Origin: Mediterranea massiliensis
GTDB lineage: Bacteria; Bacteroidota; Bacteroidia; Bacteroidales; Bacteroidaceae
Reading direction: 5' to 3'
Length of the DNA: 64,000 bases
NCBI RefSeq assembly: GCF_900128475.1
Contig: NZ_LT635837.1
Span: forward strand, 355,615 to 419,614
Part shown: positions 38,990-48,184 of the stretch, piece after piece
Layout: every line of letters starts with the position of its first letter
Position numbering within the stretch: the stretch's first letter is position 1
The notes under the pieces: model-generated
The model's input: only the letters and a program-made list of their open reading frames with translations
Databases searched by the model: none
Told to the model about the DNA's origin: nothing
Made by a program: the position numbers and the translations under genes

Positions 38990-40153
38990 ATGCTGACTCA
39001 ACTCATCAATGCCCGCATCCTCACCCCACAGGGGTGGCTGAAGGATGGTTCCGTCCTGATCCGCGACGGAAAGATTCTGGAAGTAACTAACTGCGACCTG
39101 GCCGTTATCGGCGCTACGCTCATCGACGTCAAAGGCATGTACGTACTGCCTGGCGGCATCGAGATACACGCGCATGGCGGCGGCGGACGCGACTTCATGG
39201 AGTGTACTGAGGACGCATTCCGCCAGGCGGTAGCAACGCACATGAAATATGGTACGACGAGCATCTTCCCCACGATGTCGTCGTCGACTGTCCCCATGAT
39301 CGAGCAAGCAGCCGAAACCTGTACGAAGTTGATGGCCGAGCCCGACAGCCCCATCATGGGCCTGCACCTCGAAGGCCATTACTTCAACCCGGCCATGGCA
39401 GGCGGACAACTCCCCGAAAACATCAAGAACCCCGACCCCAACGAATACATCCCGCTGGTAGAACGCTGGTCGTGCATCAAGCGCTGGGACGCCGCTCCCG
39501 AACTGCCGGGTGCCATCCAGTTCGGCAAGTACATCGCCGGAAAAGGCATCCTGGCCTCTGTGGGACACACACAGGCCGAGTTTGAAGACATCCTGGCCGC
39601 CTACGAAGCCGGATATACCCACGCCACGCACTTCTACAACGCCATGCCGGGCTTCCACAAGCGCCGCGAATACAAGTACGAAGGCACCGTGGAGAGCATC
39701 TACCTGCTGGACGACATGACGGTGGAAGTCGTAGCCGACGGCATCCACGTGCCGCCCACCATCCTGCGACTGGTCTACAAGATAAAAGGTGTGGAGCGCA
39801 CATGCCTCATCACCGACGCCCTGGCCTGCGCCGCCAGCGACAGCAAGGAGGCCTTTGACCCCCGCGTCATCATCGAAGACGGTGTCTGCAAACTGGCCGA
39901 CCGCTCGGCACTGGCCGGAAGTATCGCCACGATGGACCGCCTGATCCGCACCGTGGTACAGAAAGCCGACATACCGCTGGCCGACGCCTCGCGCATGGTA
40001 TCCGAGACACCTGCCAAGATCATGGGCATATACGACCGCAAGGGCTCGCTGCAGAAAGGCAAGGACGCCGATATCATGGTGATGGACGAGAACCTGAACG
40101 TTCGCGCCGTATGGGCCATGGGCAAGCTTGTTCCCGACACCTATACCATCTGA
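38990..40153 (+). CDS. nagA: N-acetylglucosamine-6-phosphate deacetylase
   Basis: A 387-residue amidohydrolase-superfamily enzyme that deacetylates GlcNAc-6-phosphate. Metal and substrate motifs are in order: EIHAHGGGGRDFME near 57, GLHLEGHYFNP near 123, SVGHTQAEFEDIL near 188, THATHFYNAMPGFHKR near 210, LITDALACAASDS near 270 (catalytic Asp). The C-terminal strand GSLQKGKDADIMVMD is typical. The length matches NagA. It lies 33 bases before a NagB/PIG-L fusion, forming an amino-sugar operon. Confidence 0.95.
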   Translation: MLTQLINARILTPQGWLKDGSVLIRDGKILEVTNCDLAVIGATLIDVKGMYVLPGGIEIHAHGGGGRDFMECTEDAFRQAVATHMKYGTTSIFPTMSSSTVPMIEQAAETCTKLMAEPDSPIMGLHLEGHYFNPAMAGGQLPENIKNPDPNEYIPLVERWSCIKRWDAAPELPGAIQFGKYIAGKGILASVGHTQAEFEDILAAYEAGYTHATHFYNAMPGFHKRREYKYEGTVESIYLLDDMTVEVVADGIHVPPTILRLVYKIKGVERTCLITDALACAASDSKEAFDPRVIIEDGVCKLADRSALAGSIATMDRLIRTVVQKADIPLADASRMVSETPAKIMGIYDRKGSLQKGKDADIMVMDENLNVRAVWAMGKLVPDTYTI

Positions 40154-40186: not shown

Positions 40187-42178
40187 ATGAAGACCAATCT
40201 AAGCTCACAAATCACGCTGAACCGAGTATCCCCCCGATACTACCGCCCGGAGAACGCCTTCGAACGCTCCGTACTGACCCGTCTGGAGAAAGTACCCACC
40301 GACATCTACGAGACTCCTGAAGAAGGAGCCGACCAGATAGCCCGCGACATCGCCCAGCTGATACGCGACAAGCAGAAGGCCGGACGCTTCTGTGTACTGG
40401 CCCTGGCAGGCGGCAATTCGCCCCGCAACGTATATGCCCACCTGGTACGCATGCACCAGGAAGAGGGACTGAGCTTCCGCAACGTCGTCGTGTTCAACCT
40501 CTACGAATACTATCCGCTGGCTCCCGATGCCGCCACCAGCAATCTGAATGCCCTGAAGGAGATGCTCCTCGACCATGTGGACATCGACAAGCAGAACGTC
40601 TTCAGCCCCGACGGCACCATCGCCAAGGATACCATCTTCGAATACTGCCGCCTGTACGAACAGCGCATCGAGAGCTTCGGCGGACTGGACGTGGCCCTGC
40701 TGGGCATCGGCCGCGTAGGCAACATCGGCTTCAACGAACCGGGTTCGCGACTGAACTCCACCACCCGCCTCATCCTGCTGGACAGCGACTCGCGCAACGA
40801 TGCGGCCAAGCTGTTCGGTACGATTGACAATACTCCCGTCAGCTCCATCACGATGGGTGTATCGACTATCCTAGGTGCCAAGAAGGTGTACCTCATGGCC
40901 TGGGGCGAGGAAAAGGCAAAGATGGTGAAAGAATGCGTGGAAGGCAACATTACGGACACCATCCCCGCCTCCTACCTGCAGACGCACAACAACGCCCACA
41001 TTGTAATCGACCTCTCGGCCGCCTCCAACCTGACTCGCATCCAGCGTCCCTGGCTGGTGACGTCCTGCGAATGGAACGACAAGCTCATCCGCAGTGCCAT
41101 CGTATGGCTGTGCCAGCTCACGGGCAAACCCATCTTGAAGCTGACCAACAAGGATTACAACGAGAACGGCTTAAGCGAACTGCTGGCTCTCTACGGTTCG
41201 GCCTACAATGTGAACATCAAGATATTCAACGACCTGCAGCACACCATCACGGGATGGCCGGGCGGCAAGCCGAACGCCGACGACACCTACCGTCCCGAAC
41301 GTGCCAAACCTTTCCCGAAGCGCGTCGTGGTATTCTCTCCGCACCCCGATGACGATGTCATCTCCATGGGCGGCACCATCCGCCGCCTGGTAGAGCAAGG
41401 TCATGATGTGCACGTAGCCTACGAAACCAGCGGCAACATTGCCGTGGGCGACGAAGAGGTGGTTCGCTTCCTGCACTTCATCAACGGCTTCAACCAGCTG
41501 TTCAACAACAGTGCCGACCAGGTCATCAACGAGAAGTATGCCGAGATCCGCAAGTTCCTGCGCGAGAAGAAGGACGGCGACATGGATACGCGAGACATAC
41601 TCACTATCAAGGGCCTTATCCGCCGCGGCGAGGCACGTACGGCCTGCACCTACAACAACATCCCGCTGGACCACTGCCACTTCCTGGACCTGCCCTTCTA
41701 CGAGACCGGCAAGATCAAGAAGAACCCCATCAGCGAGGCCGACGTGGAAATCGTACGCAACCTGCTGCGTGAAGTGCAGCCCCATCAGGTATTTGTGGCC
41801 GGCGACCTGGCCGACCCGCACGGCACACACCGCGTCTGCACCGACGCCGTATTCGCCGCCATCGACCTGGAGAAGGAAGAAGGGGCCGAATGGCTGAAGG
41901 ACTGCCGCATCTGGATGTACCGTGGTGCCTGGGCTGAATGGGAAATCGAGAACATCGAGATGGCCGTGCCCATCAGCCCCGAAGAACTGAGAGCCAAACG
42001 AAACTCCATCCTGAAGCACCAGAGCCAGATGGAAAGCGCTCCGTTCTTGGGCAACGACGAACGTCTCTTCTGGCAACGAAGCGAAGACCGCAACCGCGGC
42101 ACAGCCAACCTGTACAACAGCCTGGGTCTGGCCAGCTACGAAGCGATGGAAGCGTTTGTGGAGTATATTCCGCTGTAA
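40187..42178 (+). CDS. Fusion of a NagB-like domain and a PIG-L deacetylase-like domain
   Basis: A 663-residue cytoplasmic protein usually annotated glucosamine-6-phosphate deaminase. Residues 20-300 align with NagB, but active-site motifs are altered: NMDEY reads NLYEY (catalytic Asp replaced by Tyr106), and GNDGHIAFNEP reads GRVGNIGFNEP (Asp to Val177, His to Asn179; Glu184 kept). Residues 375-640 form a PIG-L/LmbE-type domain with intact metal motif SPHPDDD (384-390) and downstream DPHGTHRVCTDAVF. So deaminase activity is doubtful, while a hydrolase acting on an amino-sugar or amide is plausible. It follows nagA by 33 bases. Many Bacteroidales keep a separate short NagB, which would be consistent with a new role. 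Confidence 0.85.
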   Translation: MKTNLSSQITLNRVSPRYYRPENAFERSVLTRLEKVPTDIYETPEEGADQIARDIAQLIRDKQKAGRFCVLALAGGNSPRNVYAHLVRMHQEEGLSFRNVVVFNLYEYYPLAPDAATSNLNALKEMLLDHVDIDKQNVFSPDGTIAKDTIFEYCRLYEQRIESFGGLDVALLGIGRVGNIGFNEPGSRLNSTTRLILLDSDSRNDAAKLFGTIDNTPVSSITMGVSTILGAKKVYLMAWGEEKAKMVKECVEGNITDTIPASYLQTHNNAHIVIDLSAASNLTRIQRPWLVTSCEWNDKLIRSAIVWLCQLTGKPILKLTNKDYNENGLSELLALYGSAYNVNIKIFNDLQHTITGWPGGKPNADDTYRPERAKPFPKRVVVFSPHPDDDVISMGGTIRRLVEQGHDVHVAYETSGNIAVGDEEVVRFLHFINGFNQLFNNSADQVINEKYAEIRKFLREKKDGDMDTRDILTIKGLIRRGEARTACTYNNIPLDHCHFLDLPFYETGKIKKNPISEADVEIVRNLLREVQPHQVFVAGDLADPHGTHRVCTDAVFAAIDLEKEEGAEWLKDCRIWMYRGAWAEWEIENIEMAVPISPEELRAKRNSILKHQSQMESAPFLGNDERLFWQRSEDRNRGTANLYNSLGLASYEAMEAFVEYIPL

Positions 42179-42245: not shown

Positions 42246-43133
42246 TCATCCCTTCTTTGAGTTCCGATATTCCTTAGGAGACATTCCCATAATCTTACTG
42301 AACAGACGCGAAAAGTAAAACATGTCTTCCATCCCCACCTTGTAACAAATCTGATTCACCTTCATATCTGTTTTATCCAGCAATGAGCAAGCATATTGGA
42401 CCTTCAGCAAATTAAAGTAGGCGGACGGACTATGCCCTGTTTTCTGCCTGAACAGCGCCGAAAAGTGTGAAGACGAATATCCCGTATGCAAAGCCATATC
42501 CTGTAAAGACAAGCGTTTCTCCATATTCTCTTTCATATAATGAATGGCCTCCTCCACTACATCCGTTTCATCATGTCTGTTACCATTGGCATTGCGATAC
42601 GGCTGTACATAACGCAAAGAACCCAGGAAATAATGGAAAAGAGAAGATACATACCGCAAATTTTCGTTGCTATAACCAGACTTCAGGATGGTGAACATCT
42701 CTTCGAAAAGTCCGATACGGTCACTGATACGTGAACGGTTCCCAGGCCGTATATCCATGGGAATAGCGGCATCCTTGGCATAATAAACTGCCATATCGCC
42801 TTTAAAGTGTATCCAATAAATAGTCCATGGAGCGGATTCATCGGCTCCATAAGCATGGGGGACTCCAGCCGGAAGAATGAAATACTGATTGGCAACCACC
42901 GGATGGGTATGCCCGCCCAAGCGATACCAGCCTTCACCATCTGTACAATAGATAAAGACATACTGATTGATGGGCACTTTACGTTCCCTGTAATGATGCA
43001 AGGCCCGCGGGAAATAGCCGATATCCGTAATATGAAGCCTGGAAAGCAATGGATCGGCCTCCATAGACTCCACAATCAGTTTGGGAAGCACCAGTAACTG
43101 CTCCCCCTGAAATCCGTCCTTCAATTCAATCAT
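42246..43133 (-). CDS. AraC-family transcriptional regulator
   Basis: A 295-residue regulator. The N-terminal cupin-like sensor (about 40-125, with VPINQYVFIYCTDGEGWYRLGGHTHPV and QYFILPAGVPHAYG) probably binds a sugar. The C-terminal pair of helix-turn-helix motifs (about 190-292: LSLQDMALHTGYSSSHFSALF and VNQICYKVGMEDMFYFSRLF) is typical of AraC/XylS and ends with MSPKEYRNS. It is divergent from the sugar porter at 43292 and likely activates the porter/DUF5107/GH2 genes in response to a sugar. Confidence 0.93.
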   Translation of the reverse strand: MIELKDGFQGEQLLVLPKLIVESMEADPLLSRLHITDIGYFPRALHHYRERKVPINQYVFIYCTDGEGWYRLGGHTHPVVANQYFILPAGVPHAYGADESAPWTIYWIHFKGDMAVYYAKDAAIPMDIRPGNRSRISDRIGLFEEMFTILKSGYSNENLRYVSSLFHYFLGSLRYVQPYRNANGNRHDETDVVEEAIHYMKENMEKRLSLQDMALHTGYSSSHFSALFRQKTGHSPSAYFNLLKVQYACSLLDKTDMKVNQICYKVGMEDMFYFSRLFSKIMGMSPKEYRNSKKG

Positions 43134-43188: not shown

Positions 43189-43253
43189 GTAAAATCGTAA
43201 GATTGTCCATATACAGAATAAGACTTTCTATTTTTCAGTTCGTTGGTAGTTGT

Positions 43254-43261
43254 TACTTTTG
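43254..43261 (+). promoter_or_regulatory. -7 box for the sugar porter gene
   Basis: TACTTTTG, with a TTTTT tract about 20 bp upstream as a possible -33 region; 30 bases before the ATG. Confidence 0.5.
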
Positions 43262-43291
43262 CAGCAGAAAACAAAAAGTTCATCTGATAAC

Positions 43292-44650
43292 ATGAAAACG
43301 TACAACAAAGGATTCATCTACTTCATCTGCCTGGTGTCTGCCATGGGCGGACTGCTGTTCGGTTACGACTGGGTCGTCATCGGCGGTGCCAAGATTTTCT
43401 ACGAACAGTTCTTCGACATTGCTGGTGATCCTGGCATGCAAGGGCTGGCCATGAGCATTGCGTTGGCCGGATGCCTCATCGGAGCCCTGACAGCCGGTAT
43501 GCTGGCCGACAAATTGGGACGCAAGCCGCTGCTTCTGCTTTCGGCCCTCATCTTTGTACTGACAGCCTACGGGACGGGAGCTTTCAGCAATTTTCACCTT
43601 TTCCTATTGGCACGCTTCTGCGGGGGCATTGCCATCGGCATCGCTTCGGGCCTGTCGCCCATGTACATTGCTGAAGTGGCTCCTACACACATTCGCGGCA
43701 AGCTGGTATCACTCAATCAGTTGACCATCGTTATCGGCATTCTGGCCGCCCAGATAGTCAACTGGCTGCTGCTCAGCGACGATACGGCATGGAATGTTGC
43801 CATGGCCTGGCGCTGGATGTTCTGGGCCGCTGCCTTCCCCGCCTTAGCCTTTTTGGTACTGGCAGCATTCATTCCCGAAAGTCCCCGCTGGCTGGCCATG
43901 ACCGGACAACGGGAACGGGCCCTCGAGACGTTGGCCCGTATCGGCGGAAACGACTATGCCCGCAACGAGCTGAACACCTTGCAGACTGATATGCAACGCA
44001 AACAAACTCAGGGCGGCCTCGCGCTGCTCTTCAGCAAGCCCTACCGACGGGTACTGATGCTGGGCATCATCGTGGCCATGTTTCAGCAATGGTGCGGCAC
44101 AAACGTCATCTTCAACTACGCTCAGGAGGTTTTCCAGTCGGCTGGTTACGATGTGGACAATACGTTCATCAACATCGTCGTGACGGGCATCGCCAACTTG
44201 GTCTTCACGTTCGTGGCCATCTATACCGTCGACCGCCTGGGACGCCGCGCACTGATGCTTCTTGGAGCGGGCGGACTGGCCGGCATCTACCTGATACTGG
44301 GCACCTGCTATTACTTCGAGGTAAGCGGCATTTTCATGGTCGTACTGGTAGTAACCGCCATTGCCTGTTATGCCATGACGCTGGGACCTGTCACGTGGGT
44401 ACTGTTGTCCGAAATCTTCCCCAACAAAGTGAGGGGTGTGGCCGTGGCTACCGGTACGTTTACCCTGTGGGTGGCCAGCTTCATCCTGACCTACACCTTC
44501 CCCTTCCTGAACAAAGCACTGGGGACGGCCGGTACTTTCTGGATCTATACAGCCATCTGCGCCGCCGGTCTTGTCTTCTTCCTCTTCCGCATGCCCGAAA
44601 CCAAAGGCAAATCGCTGGAGCAGCTGGAAAAGGAAATGGTAGATGAATGA
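43292..44650 (+). CDS. MFS sugar porter (sugar:H+ symporter)
   Basis: A 452-residue inner-membrane transporter with about twelve helices. Sugar-porter signatures are in place: GGLLFGYDWVVIGGA near residue 20, DKLGRKPLL near 70, FCGGIAIGIASGLSPMYIAEVAP near 108, IPESPRWL near 193, DRLGRRALM near 312, GPVTWVLLSEIFPNKVRG near 370 and PETKGKSLEQLE at the end. Similar proteins carry xylose, arabinose, galactose or glucose. Start 43292 (MKTYNKGF) is chosen over the ATG at 43250 because the latter lies upstream of the -7 box. It is divergent from the AraC regulator and upstream of DUF5107 and GH2 genes, so it imports the sugar they release or sense. Confidence 0.92.
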   Translation: MKTYNKGFIYFICLVSAMGGLLFGYDWVVIGGAKIFYEQFFDIAGDPGMQGLAMSIALAGCLIGALTAGMLADKLGRKPLLLLSALIFVLTAYGTGAFSNFHLFLLARFCGGIAIGIASGLSPMYIAEVAPTHIRGKLVSLNQLTIVIGILAAQIVNWLLLSDDTAWNVAMAWRWMFWAAAFPALAFLVLAAFIPESPRWLAMTGQRERALETLARIGGNDYARNELNTLQTDMQRKQTQGGLALLFSKPYRRVLMLGIIVAMFQQWCGTNVIFNYAQEVFQSAGYDVDNTFINIVVTGIANLVFTFVAIYTVDRLGRRALMLLGAGGLAGIYLILGTCYYFEVSGIFMVVLVVTAIACYAMTLGPVTWVLLSEIFPNKVRGVAVATGTFTLWVASFILTYTFPFLNKALGTAGTFWIYTAICAAGLVFFLFRMPETKGKSLEQLEKEMVDE

Positions 44651-44857: not shown

Positions 44858-47800
44858 ATGGGAAGTGAACTAAAAACAACACATACAACTATGGTTAAAG
44901 CCTGGAAAGAACAAGTAACCATCCCTACCTACGAAGTGGGGAAACCCGAAAAGAGCCCGATGTTTCTGGAGAAACGTGTCTATCAGGGCAGCAGTGGTGT
45001 AGTCTATCCCTATCCGGTCATCGAGTCCATTGCCGACGAGAAGACCGACAAGACCTACAACGCCGTATTCATCGAGAACGAATACATCAAAGTCATGATT
45101 CTGCCCGAGCTGGGTGGACGTGTACAGATGGCTTACGACAAGATAAAGCAACGCCATTTCATCTACTACAACCACGTCATCAAGCCTGCATTGGTAGGCT
45201 TGGCCGGTCCCTGGATTTCGGGCGGCATCGAGTTCAACTGGCCTCAACACCACCGCCCCAGCACCTATATGCCCGTTGACACCACCATCGAAGAGAATGC
45301 CGACGGCAGTGTCACGGTATGGGTCAGCGAGATGGAGCGCATGTTCCATCAGAAAGGTATGGCTGGTTTCACCCTTCGGCCGGGACATGCCTTCCTCGAA
45401 ATCAAAGGCGTGCTCTATAACCGAACGGAAGTGCCGCAAACTTTCCTGTGGTGGGCCAATCCGGCCGTAGCCGTCAACGACTATTACCAGAGCGTCTTCC
45501 CACCCGATATCAACGCCGTGTTCGACCATGGCAAGCGGGCCGTCAGCAGCTTCCCCATCGCCACAGGTACATATTACAAGATGGACTACTCGGCTGGCGT
45601 GGACATCTCGAACTACAAGAACATCAAGGTTCCTACGTCCTACATGGCCGTCAACTCGCGCTTCGACTTCGAGGGCGGTTACGAAAACGATACTCAGGCC
45701 GGCATGCTCCACGTAGCCAGCCATCACGTATCGCCAGGCAAGAAGCAATGGACATGGGGCAACGGCGACTTCGGTCGTGCCTGGGACCGCAACCTCACCG
45801 ACGAAGACGGCCCCTACATCGAACTGATGGCGGGCGTCTATACCGAAAACCAGCCCGATTTCACCTGGCTGCAACCCTACGAGGAAAAGAGCTTCGTACA
45901 ATACTTCCTGCCCTACCGTGAGCTGGGTATCGTAAAGAACGCCACCAAAGACCTCCTGCTGAACATCGACCCCGAAGGCGAGGGACGCGTACGCTTCAAG
46001 CTGTTCGCCACCTCGCGCCAGGCCATCCACATCACTCTGCGGAGCGACGGAGGGCGTATCTACTACGACCGCAACGTAACGGTATGCCCCGAAGAAGTGC
46101 TCAACGAAGTGGTAGATGTCCAAGGCGAAGCCTTCAACCGGCTGACTCTCGACATTACTGCCGGAGGACGAGAACTGCTGAGCTGGCATGCCGAGTCCGA
46201 CGAAGTGAAGCCCATCCCCGACGCAGCCGAAGCAGCCCTGCTCCCTGCCGAAATCAAGACGACAGAGCAGCTCTACCTCACCGGCCTACATCTGGAACAG
46301 TACCGCCACGCCACATACAACCCCGTGGACTATTATGAAGAAGCCCTGCGCCGCGACCCCATCGATGTACGAAACAACAACGCACTGGGCCTGTGGTACA
46401 TCCGCAAAGGCCGCTTCCAGAAGGCTGAGCAGTACCTGCTCACGGCCGTCAAGACCTTGCAGAAACGCAATCCCAACCCCTACGACGGCGAGCCCCTGTA
46501 CAACCTGGGCCTTGCCTTGAAATATCAAGGACGTATCGACGAAGCCTACAACCGCTTCTATAAGTCGTGCTGGAATGCTGCCTGGCAGGATGCCGGTTAC
46601 CTGGCCTGCGCACAAATCTCCACTTGGCAGAACCGTCTGGAGGATGCCCTCTACGAGATAGACCATTCGCTCATCCGCAACTGGCACAACCACAAGGCAC
46701 GCGCCCTGAAAGCAACCCTCCTGCGCCGCAACGGCCAGTCTGAAGCTGCCCGGAAGCTCATCGAGGAATCATTGGCCATCGATGCCTTCAACTTCGGATG
46801 CCGTTACGAGCTGTATCTTCTCACACACGACGAACAGACCTTACAGACCTTCCAAGAAATGATGCGCGGCGAAGCCCACAACTACGACGAGATAGCCCTC
46901 GACTATTGTGCCGCCGGCTGTTGGGACGAGGCCATCTCCCTCTGGCAACTGGCCATCGGCCAGCAGGCCGTCAGCCCCATGACCTATTATTACATGGGCT
47001 GGTGCATGAAGCAGGGTGGCAAAGAGGGATACGCCGACATCTTTGTACAAGCCTCGCAGGCCTGTCCCGACTATTGCTTCCCCAACCGTCTGGAAGCCAT
47101 CCTGGCCCTGCAATGTGCCATGGAAGTCAATCCGTCCGACGCCAAGGCCCCCTACTACCTGGGCAACCTGTACTACGACAAACGCCAATACGACCTGGCC
47201 GTCCAGGCCTGGGAAGCGTCCGTTCAGAAAGATGACACCTTCCCCATTGCCTGGCGCAACTTGGCCCTGGCCTACTTCAACAAGCAGCAGGACGAAGAGA
47301 AAGCCGTATCGTGTATGGAGCGTGCTTTCCGCCTCGACCCCACCGATGCCCGTATCCTGATGGAACTCGACCAGCTGTACAAACGCCTGCACCGTCCGCA
47401 CGGACAGCGCCTGGCCTTCCTGCAACAATATCCGGAACTGATAGCCCGCCGCGACGACCTCATCCTTAAAGAAGCGACCCTTCTGAACCAGACCGGCCGT
47501 TACGAAGAAGCCAAACAAATCGTAGATAGCCACCACTTCCATCCTTGGGAAGGCGGTGAAGGCAAGGTTTCCGGCCAATACCAGTTTGCCCGCATCGAAC
47601 TGGCCAAGCAAGCTCTGGCCGACGGCAAAGCCTCCGAAGCCATACACCTGCTTGAAGAATGTCTGGTCTACCCGCACAACCTGGGCGAAGGGAAACTCTA
47701 TGGCGCACAGGAAAACGACTTCTACTATTTCATGGGATGTGCCTACCAGTCCATGGGAAACCAGGAAAAAGCTGTCGAATGTTGGGAAAAAGCGACAAAC

Positions 47801-48184
47801 GGACCAACCGAACCTGCTGCCGCCCTCTACTACAACGATGCCAAGCCCGACAAAATCTTCTACCAGGGCATGGCCTTGCTAAAGCTGGGACGTACCGACC
47901 AGGCCAAAGGCCGCTTCCACAAACTCGTATCCTATGGCGAGAAACATCTCTTCGACCAGGTACGGATGGACTATTTCGCCGTATCACTGCCCGACCTCCT
48001 CATTTGGGACGACAGCCTCGATACGCGCAACATCGTCCACTGCAAATACATGATGGCTTTGGGACACTGGGGACTGGGCGAACGAAAAAAGGCCCTGCAC
48101 CTGCTGGACGAAGCCGCCGCACTGGACAACAATCACCAAGGAATTTATAGTACACAAACTCTAATCAAACTCCAATTGTCATGA
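44858..48184 (+). CDS. DUF5107 and TPR-repeat protein
   Basis: A protein of 1108 residues (1097 if the in-frame ATG at 44891, MVKAWKEQV, is the true start, which fits the homologous N-terminus I would expect and the A-rich bases before it). Residues about 15-400 form a DUF5107 domain, a beta-sandwich resembling galactose mutarotases (LPELGGRVQMAYDK, GGIEFNWPQHHRPS). The rest is helical with TPR-like units (for example VRNNNALGLWYIRKGRFQKA, and PIAWRNLALAYFNKQQDEEK). No signal peptide is seen, so it is cytoplasmic. It overlaps the GH2 gene by ATGA, indicating coupled translation. A role in sugar binding or epimerisation with partner assembly is inferred. Confidence 0.85.
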   Translation: MGSELKTTHTTMVKAWKEQVTIPTYEVGKPEKSPMFLEKRVYQGSSGVVYPYPVIESIADEKTDKTYNAVFIENEYIKVMILPELGGRVQMAYDKIKQRHFIYYNHVIKPALVGLAGPWISGGIEFNWPQHHRPSTYMPVDTTIEENADGSVTVWVSEMERMFHQKGMAGFTLRPGHAFLEIKGVLYNRTEVPQTFLWWANPAVAVNDYYQSVFPPDINAVFDHGKRAVSSFPIATGTYYKMDYSAGVDISNYKNIKVPTSYMAVNSRFDFEGGYENDTQAGMLHVASHHVSPGKKQWTWGNGDFGRAWDRNLTDEDGPYIELMAGVYTENQPDFTWLQPYEEKSFVQYFLPYRELGIVKNATKDLLLNIDPEGEGRVRFKLFATSRQAIHITLRSDGGRIYYDRNVTVCPEEVLNEVVDVQGEAFNRLTLDITAGGRELLSWHAESDEVKPIPDAAEAALLPAEIKTTEQLYLTGLHLEQYRHATYNPVDYYEEALRRDPIDVRNNNALGLWYIRKGRFQKAEQYLLTAVKTLQKRNPNPYDGEPLYNLGLALKYQGRIDEAYNRFYKSCWNAAWQDAGYLACAQISTWQNRLEDALYEIDHSLIRNWHNHKARALKATLLRRNGQSEAARKLIEESLAIDAFNFGCRYELYLLTHDEQTLQTFQEMMRGEAHNYDEIALDYCAAGCWDEAISLWQLAIGQQAVSPMTYYYMGWCMKQGGKEGYADIFVQASQACPDYCFPNRLEAILALQCAMEVNPSDAKAPYYLGNLYYDKRQYDLAVQAWEASVQKDDTFPIAWRNLALAYFNKQQDEEKAVSCMERAFRLDPTDARILMELDQLYKRLHRPHGQRLAFLQQYPELIARRDDLILKEATLLNQTGRYEEAKQIVDSHHFHPWEGGEGKVSGQYQFARIELAKQALADGKASEAIHLLEECLVYPHNLGEGKLYGAQENDFYYFMGCAYQSMGNQEKAVECWEKATNGPTEPAAALYYNDAKPDKIFYQGMALLKLGRTDQAKGRFHKLVSYGEKHLFDQVRMDYFAVSLPDLLIWDDSLDTRNIVHCKYMMALGHWGLGERKKALHLLDEAAALDNNHQGIYSTQTLIKLQLS

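Follow-up and report, generated by a model that had tools for sequence, protein, structure and literature searches.

The 64,000-nt stretch of Mediterranea massiliensis DNA analysed here (the window) carries, at 40187..42178 on the plus strand, a gene encoding a 663-aa protein in which a NagB-like domain is fused to a PIG-L domain. The protein matches the curated NCBIfam model NF002557 (PRK02122, 'glucosamine-6-phosphate deaminase-like protein', kind 'subfamily') over residues 9–661 of 663 with 1093.2 bits against a cut-off of 384, and the fusion itself is an already known curated subfamily. Its closest named relatives are L069 from an uncultured Bacteroides (94%) and a protein of B. fragilis (91%). 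The NagB-like (Glucosamine_iso) domain spans residues 43–269 (40313..40993, plus strand; Pfam E 3e-24), followed by a linker of residues 284–376 (41036..41314, plus strand) with an invariant GWPGGK motif at 356–361, and by a PIG-L/LmbE domain that extends by fold over residues 377–663 (41315..42175, plus strand). Upstream on the same strand, at 38990..40153, lies nagA, encoding N-acetylglucosamine-6-phosphate deacetylase (TIGR00221, 261.7 bits, cut-off 225.65), which ends 33 bp before the fused gene begins. TIGR00221, matched by this neighbouring gene, is absent from the 11 families matching the fused protein at E <= 0.001. Below, G labels denote genomes, L labels loci or alignment rows and f labels families, the family of the window being f1.

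Alignment to the E. coli NagB chain places Tyr106 (codon 40502..40504, plus strand), Val177, Asn179 and Glu184 (codons 177–184, 40715..40738, plus strand) at the positions of Asp72, Asp141, His143 and Glu148, respectively. The first-pass annotation of this DNA had described exactly these three replacements and the retention of Glu148. In NagB, His143 serves in ring opening and Asp72 in proton transfer, and these two we take to be the catalytic residues. The annotation's further claim, that all three replacements mark lost catalysis, holds for Asp72 and His143, which are the telling losses. Asp141 was rejected as a marker: the equivalent residue of B. subtilis NagB is Asn, and Thr, Ser or Asn stands at this position in the 77 fused proteins with both other residues intact.

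The NagB fold, predicted by the annotation to be intact, is preserved in an AlphaFold2 model of the window protein (mean predicted local distance difference test score 88.3, predicted template modelling score 0.79): the modelled NagB half superposes on E. coli NagB (1dea) with Z 35.8 and 1.7 A over 251 residues, and on B. subtilis NagB at 1.2 A over 242 residues. The label 'glucosamine-6-phosphate deaminase', which the annotation had called into question, does not fit. Against the nagB equivalog TIGR00502 the window protein reaches 202.1 bits, under the cut-off of 236.9, Asp72 and His143 are gone, and a separate canonical nagB, which the annotation had proposed to look for, is present in the genome on contig C20, where it encodes a 270-aa protein with all four residues. 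Judged from its sequence, the NagB half of the window protein very probably lacks glucosamine 6-phosphate (GlcN6P) deaminase activity, and the loss of deamination is well supported.

The PIG-L half retains HPDDD at residues 386–390 (41342..41356, plus strand) and DPHGTH at residues 543–548 (41813..41830, plus strand), as first annotated, and matches PF02585 over residues 381–558 (E 9.6e-20, 71.8 bits against a cut-off of 28.2). According to a study of LmbE-like enzymes, HXDD plus H forms their metal and general-base motif (PMC4101496), and the window protein satisfies it with HPDDD and H548. His386 and Asp389 are predicted metal ligands, with His548 as the probable third, and Asp388 is the predicted general base. 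His545 would be equivalent to MshB His144, and the alignment position of Arg479 (41621..41623, plus strand), which is invariant across the 77 aligned members of alignment A2, makes it the likely counterpart of MshB Arg68 and BshB Arg53. On these motifs the PIG-L half looks catalytically complete. By modelled fold it resembles BshB (Z 23.5), diacetylchitobiose deacetylases (Z about 23) and MshB (Z 18.8), the first two lying within one Z unit and being inseparable by fold similarity; the linker was barely covered by the fold search. A role in bacillithiol or mycothiol synthesis is not supported, as the protein scores far under the equivalog cut-offs for BshB1 (TIGR04001, 32 against 182.5 bits) and MshB (TIGR03445, 19.5 against 224.35 bits).

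Residue states were compared in 165 fused proteins (162 distinct sequences; 164 complete and one partial), among which L136 and L147 represent the same genome and L149 and L173 are two copies from one genome. The PIG-L motifs HPDDD and HGTH are present in all 165. The NagB positions divide the family: 77 proteins retain D72 and H143 together, 76 have lost both, D72 alone is lost in seven, H143 alone in four, and one protein is partial. None of the members from the window's own family keeps both. Within the both-lost class, Tyr occupies the D72 position in 64 of 76 proteins and Asn the H143 position in 70 of 76, and this pattern is therefore not chance. Glu148 is kept in 53 of the 76, including the window protein. 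At T41, G42, R172 and K208, presumably the phosphate-site residues of NagB, the same class retains G42 in 76/76 proteins, K208 in 70/76, T41 in 22/76 and R172 in 14/76. On the annotation's proposal that the first domain binds an amino-sugar phosphate, these residues point both ways. Named both-lost members come from Bacteroides, Phocaeicola, Prevotella, Leyella, Dysgonomonas, Petrimonas, Proteiniphilum, Tannerella, Parabacteroides, Paludibacter, Barnesiella, Coprobacter and Muribaculaceae, and named keepers from Cytophagales, Chitinophagaceae, Flavobacteriaceae, Saprospiraceae, Balneolaceae, Prolixibacter and Odoribacter. Across two genome sets, keepers score 241–291 bits against TIGR00502 and pass its cut-off, whereas both-lost proteins score 144–211 bits and fail.

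The loss is thus not a general trait of the fused family, a notion rejected because 77 of the 164 complete members retain both residues. The first-pass interpretation, which is partly supported overall, had missed this distribution: of the genomes sampled, 121 of 296 in the phylum and 29 of 61 in the window's family carry a member of the curated subfamily over the cut-off, and only certain lineages show the loss. Smaller departures were also observed. In family f37 (L164–L169), D72 is replaced by Ala, Ser or Asn in 6/6 rows with H143 kept, and separate NagB reading frames occur in the same genomes. A divergent type within the window's own family (L030–L033) keeps D72 and has Gln for H143 in 4/4, and a single row, L128, has Glu for D72. 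Genomes of genus g35 carry up to four fused copies; one of them, G266 (which includes L039), has four TIGR00502 matches in frames of 648–680 aa.

Quick trees were computed from residues 283–663 only, which excludes the trait's own columns. The earlier tree omitted L113, L127 and 12 rows judged near-duplicates, and the later one omitted L107, L113 and L127. In both, the both-lost rows form one clade with a Shimodaira-Hasegawa-like approximate likelihood ratio of 100 (70 rows in the earlier tree, 74 in the later), some long branches being unsure in such trees. Four state changes account for the data: the both-lost clade, the D72-only group of f37, L128, and the H143-to-Gln group. Prolixibacter and Bacteroidia MJ, in which an intact fused copy coexists with a separate NagB, adjoin the both-lost clade in the earlier tree (support 91), suggesting that the separate NagB was present before the decay set in.

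The ratio of non-synonymous to synonymous substitution rates (dN/dS) was estimated for 14 pairs; the identical pair L112–L113 gave nothing, and many synonymous values were saturated. Between the window protein and L069, dN/dS is 0.073 in the NagB half, 0.023 in the linker and 0.035 in the PIG-L half, so the NagB half is still constrained. Its amino-acid-site rate exceeds that of the PIG-L half by 1.3–2.7x in nine lost pairs, against 1.0–1.2x in four kept pairs, one of which (L131–L142, dN/dS 0.23–0.28) resembles two paralogues. The dead NagB half is under purifying selection that is weaker than that on the PIG-L half. A sequencing error or pseudogene was rejected on account of this selection and of the loss being common to 76 members. 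Viral origin was also considered and rejected: a viral scan returned 41 pattern matches, one of which encodes a relative (L143, 53% identity over residues 378–419).

Loss of the NagB residues is associated with a separate canonical NagB. A separate protein over the TIGR00502 cut-off accompanies 45/49 both-lost, 5/6 D72-lost and 3/4 H143-lost rows, that is, 53 of the 59 rows missing a residue, versus 13 of the 73 keeping both. A second NagB match in the genome was part of the reason for choosing rows L144–L173, and 10 of the 13 coexisting kept rows come from a set picked partly for it. L144 (G121), L146 (G125) and L165 (G227) enter without a value, as no score over the cut-off is listed for the separate gene. 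In the first genome set, a separate NagB was found in 22 of 25 both-lost versus 0 of 28 kept genomes, two of the latter (G231 and G263) having weaker homologues of up to 169 and 161 bits. Among the named genomes it was found in 23 of 24 both-lost versus 3 of 25 kept genomes (Prolixibacter, Bacteroidia MJ and Balneola). Elsewhere, an intact fused copy coexists with a separate NagB in five f13 genomes and in some further ones. As a separate observation, the low-scoring homologues on G231:C62 and G263:C61 adjoin a NagA-like match and may act on another amino sugar.

For the distribution of NagA in the 296-genome draw of the phylum, the six top candidates of each genome were scored. A NagA passing the cut-off is present in 24 of 121 genomes bearing the fused gene, in 16 of 26 with a separate NagB only and in 3 of 149 with neither (Fisher p 5e-5, uncorrected for kinship). 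In a set of 80 genomes, NagA was found in 12/46 kept, 12/29 both-lost and 3/4 H143-lost genomes, plus the single D72-to-Glu genome. Within f1 it occurs in 1 of 16 genomes picked as having neither gene, and none was found in G059, an f1 genome with broken pieces of the fused gene. Three genomes of the window's genus (G002, G032 and G055) have no NagA match at E <= 1e-20, and in these three and the window genome the fused protein is the only PIG-L match. In G279 (L172, family f41), NagB and PIG-L are encoded by adjacent unfused genes at 605–1465 and 1489–2280 on the minus strand. They lie 23 bp apart without the linker and encode a 263-aa NagB with D72 and H143 and a 286-aa PIG-L protein; no NagA was found in this genome at E <= 1e-20. 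Within 4 kb of the fused gene, the 80 named loci L063–L142 contain canonical nagB (13 loci), a GKRP/MurQ-like SIS protein (seven), a BadF-type kinase (five), a ROK kinase (five) and nagA (five); some of these loci stop early at contig ends, and the MurQ and kinase roles are putative.

The reading we prefer, at close to an even chance though slightly short of it, is that the fused protein descends from a two-step enzyme of amino-sugar catabolism, that its NagB half is dead in the core Bacteroidales, and that the window protein is a PIG-L amino-sugar de-N-acetylase carrying a pseudo-NagB domain. The metal-dependent PIG-L domain of the ancestral enzyme would have taken the acetyl group off N-acetylglucosamine (GlcNAc) 6-phosphate or a close relative, with His386, Asp389 and His548 holding the metal ion, Asp388 activating water, and His545 and Arg479 binding the sugar, yielding GlcN6P and acetate. 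The ancestral NagB domain would then have deaminated this GlcN6P to fructose 6-phosphate, an intact half using its His143 for ring opening and its Asp72 for proton transfer and releasing ammonia. Asp72 and His143 would have been lost from the NagB domain of the fusion in the core Bacteroidales ancestor, whose genome probably encoded a separate canonical NagB already, and the domain would have become non-catalytic, serving as a structural or ligand-binding part. In the window organism, the separate NagB would perform the deamination step. The PIG-L activity, its substrate and the present role of the pseudo-domain we infer from the motifs, folds and distributions described above.

Several results weigh against this reading. 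Two NagA genes over the cut-off are present in the genome of the window itself, which therefore has no need of the PIG-L half as a NagA substitute; one is the upstream neighbour at a distance of 33 bp, and the second lies on a different contig (G000:C24:13572-14681, 244.9 bits). Within f1, NagA is found in 10 of 25 both-lost genomes versus 5 of 11 with a NagB match and no fused gene; as these groups are alike, it is the remainder of the phylum that produces the NagA contrast. At the looser threshold of E <= 1e-40, NagA-like proteins occur in 30/121 fused-bearing genomes (17/26 with NagB only and 4/149 with neither), and 10 of the 26 genomes with only a separate NagB, G279 among them, also have no NagA over the cut-off. 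Four both-lost rows have no separate NagB over the cut-off, G003 having a fragment and G006, G034 and L103 weak homologues. Conversely, the 13 kept rows that coexist with a separate NagB represent 12 genomes (L136 and L147 being one), and the rule that a spare NagB forces decay was rejected for this reason. With only four independent pairs, the tree-corrected test of the association was non-significant; what speaks for the association is therefore the pattern and the residues rather than how many events there were. Taxon composition confounds the NagB and NagA co-occurrence counts. The TIGR00502 cut-off is an imperfect marker, since a kept member, G224 (best nagB match E 2.8e-65), is apparently the sole genome under it (147 matched, 146 over). 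R172 is kept in 0 of 77 plausible deaminases too. As for published experiments, the chitin-locus 'NagB' of F. johnsoniae (Fjoh_4557), which may be of the fused type, resisted expression in E. coli, and its authors did not settle its role; section 6 of that study names growth defects for other mutants and not for the Fjoh_4557 deletion (PMC5127042).

The PIG-L half might instead deacylate another amino-sugar compound, such as a derivative of N-acetylmuramic acid (MurNAc) or anhydro-MurNAc, N-glycolyl-glucosamine-6-phosphate or a glycoside, acting beside NagA and not in its place. NagA is indeed present and adjacent in the window genome, it is as common in f1 with the fused gene as without it, the GKRP/MurQ-like protein and the BadF-type kinase lie near 7 and 5 of the 80 loci, and known PIG-L enzymes have varied substrates (PMC4101496). 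The absence of NagA over the cut-off from 97 of the 121 fused-bearing genomes is a better fit to a NagA-like role, and the named neighbours are found in few loci; we regard this alternative as doubtful, if a serious contender. We think it unlikely that the pseudo-NagB half acts as a regulatory sensor, turning the PIG-L half on or off upon binding GlcN6P or GlcNAc 6-phosphate. The intact modelled fold, the retention of G42 and K208 and the purifying selection would suit such a sensor; T41 and R172, however, are mostly not kept, and the PIG-L protein stands alone in the unfused L172 pair.

The conserved G42 and K208 and the selection on the NagB half could equally belong to a changed enzyme, for example a sugar-phosphate isomerase or lactonase, with Tyr106 and Asn179, the commonest replacements, as new catalytic residues. 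A fixed new active site should be conserved, and the wide variation of D141, E148, T41 and R172 in the both-lost class, together with the faster change of the NagB half relative to the PIG-L half in lost than in kept pairs, therefore counts against this proposal, which we consider quite improbable. That the whole protein is still a GlcN6P deaminase, as its plain label says, can hardly be right: the NagB fold and Glu148 are kept, but Asp72 and His143 are lost, the score is under the nagB equivalog cut-off and a canonical nagB is found elsewhere in the genome.

Downstream of the fused gene lie an AraC-type regulator on the minus strand (42246–43133) and, after it, a sugar-porter gene of the major facilitator superfamily (43250–44650). 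Beside the sugar porter, 44858–48184 encodes a 1108-aa protein with DUF5107 and many tetratricopeptide repeats.

For the Bacteroidota, the GlcNAc of mucin, chitin and peptidoglycan is an important nutrient, and 97 of the 121 sampled fused-bearing genomes have no NagA over the cut-off. Should the PIG-L half take off the acetyl group, it would fill a missing step of GlcNAc breakdown in a large part of the phylum. In the window's genus it would do so in three of the four genomes checked (G002, G032 and G055), the fourth being the window genome with its two NagA genes. We put forward only tentatively, with the balance somewhat against it, the wider proposal that the PIG-L half is a second, non-homologous class of GlcNAc-6-phosphate deacetylase across the Bacteroidota, which together with an intact NagB half would convert GlcNAc 6-phosphate to fructose 6-phosphate within one polypeptide, and that the deaminase half went dead in gut Bacteroidales once they possessed a canonical NagB, so that the deacetylase now carries a pseudo-deaminase, perhaps as its sensor or scaffold. 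One database family would in any case hold both probable deaminases and probable pseudo-deaminases, and function is therefore not transferable across it. The window protein would also exemplify a domain that has lost catalysis while another gene of the same genome does its work.

Echinicola vietnamensis is presumably a member of the Bacteroidota. In a study of glucosamine use, NagA is involved in four of five bacteria (panels A–D), and the fifth panel is that of E. vietnamensis (PMC9007349). No paper on the fusion or on a PIG-L protein as GlcNAc-6-phosphate deacetylase was found in the open PubMed Central literature, most subscription journals lying outside this search and absence being unproven. 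New here are the lineage-specific death of the deaminase half with the PIG-L site fully kept, and the link to missing NagA in much of the phylum.

Among known systems, PRK02122 matches the whole window protein, and its model covers both the 77 keepers and the 76 both-lost members among the 165. The best match of the first half, by both sequence (38% identity) and Foldseek, is the monomeric GlcN6P deaminase NagB of B. subtilis (2bkv), a single-domain protein that retains the equivalents of D72 and H143, both of which the window protein has lost. The nearest solved relatives of the PIG-L half by profile are the N,N'-diacetylchitobiose deacetylases of Pyrococcus (8bgn, 3we7 and 3wl4); these are archaeal single-domain proteins whereas the window protein is a fusion. 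BshB and MshB, LmbE-like enzymes of thiol biosynthesis, have in common with the window PIG-L half the HXDD and H metal motif (PMC4101496). NagA, finally, is a GlcNAc-6-phosphate deacetylase of the amidohydrolase type and belongs to a different protein family, and it is the reaction of this enzyme that the PIG-L half may also carry out.

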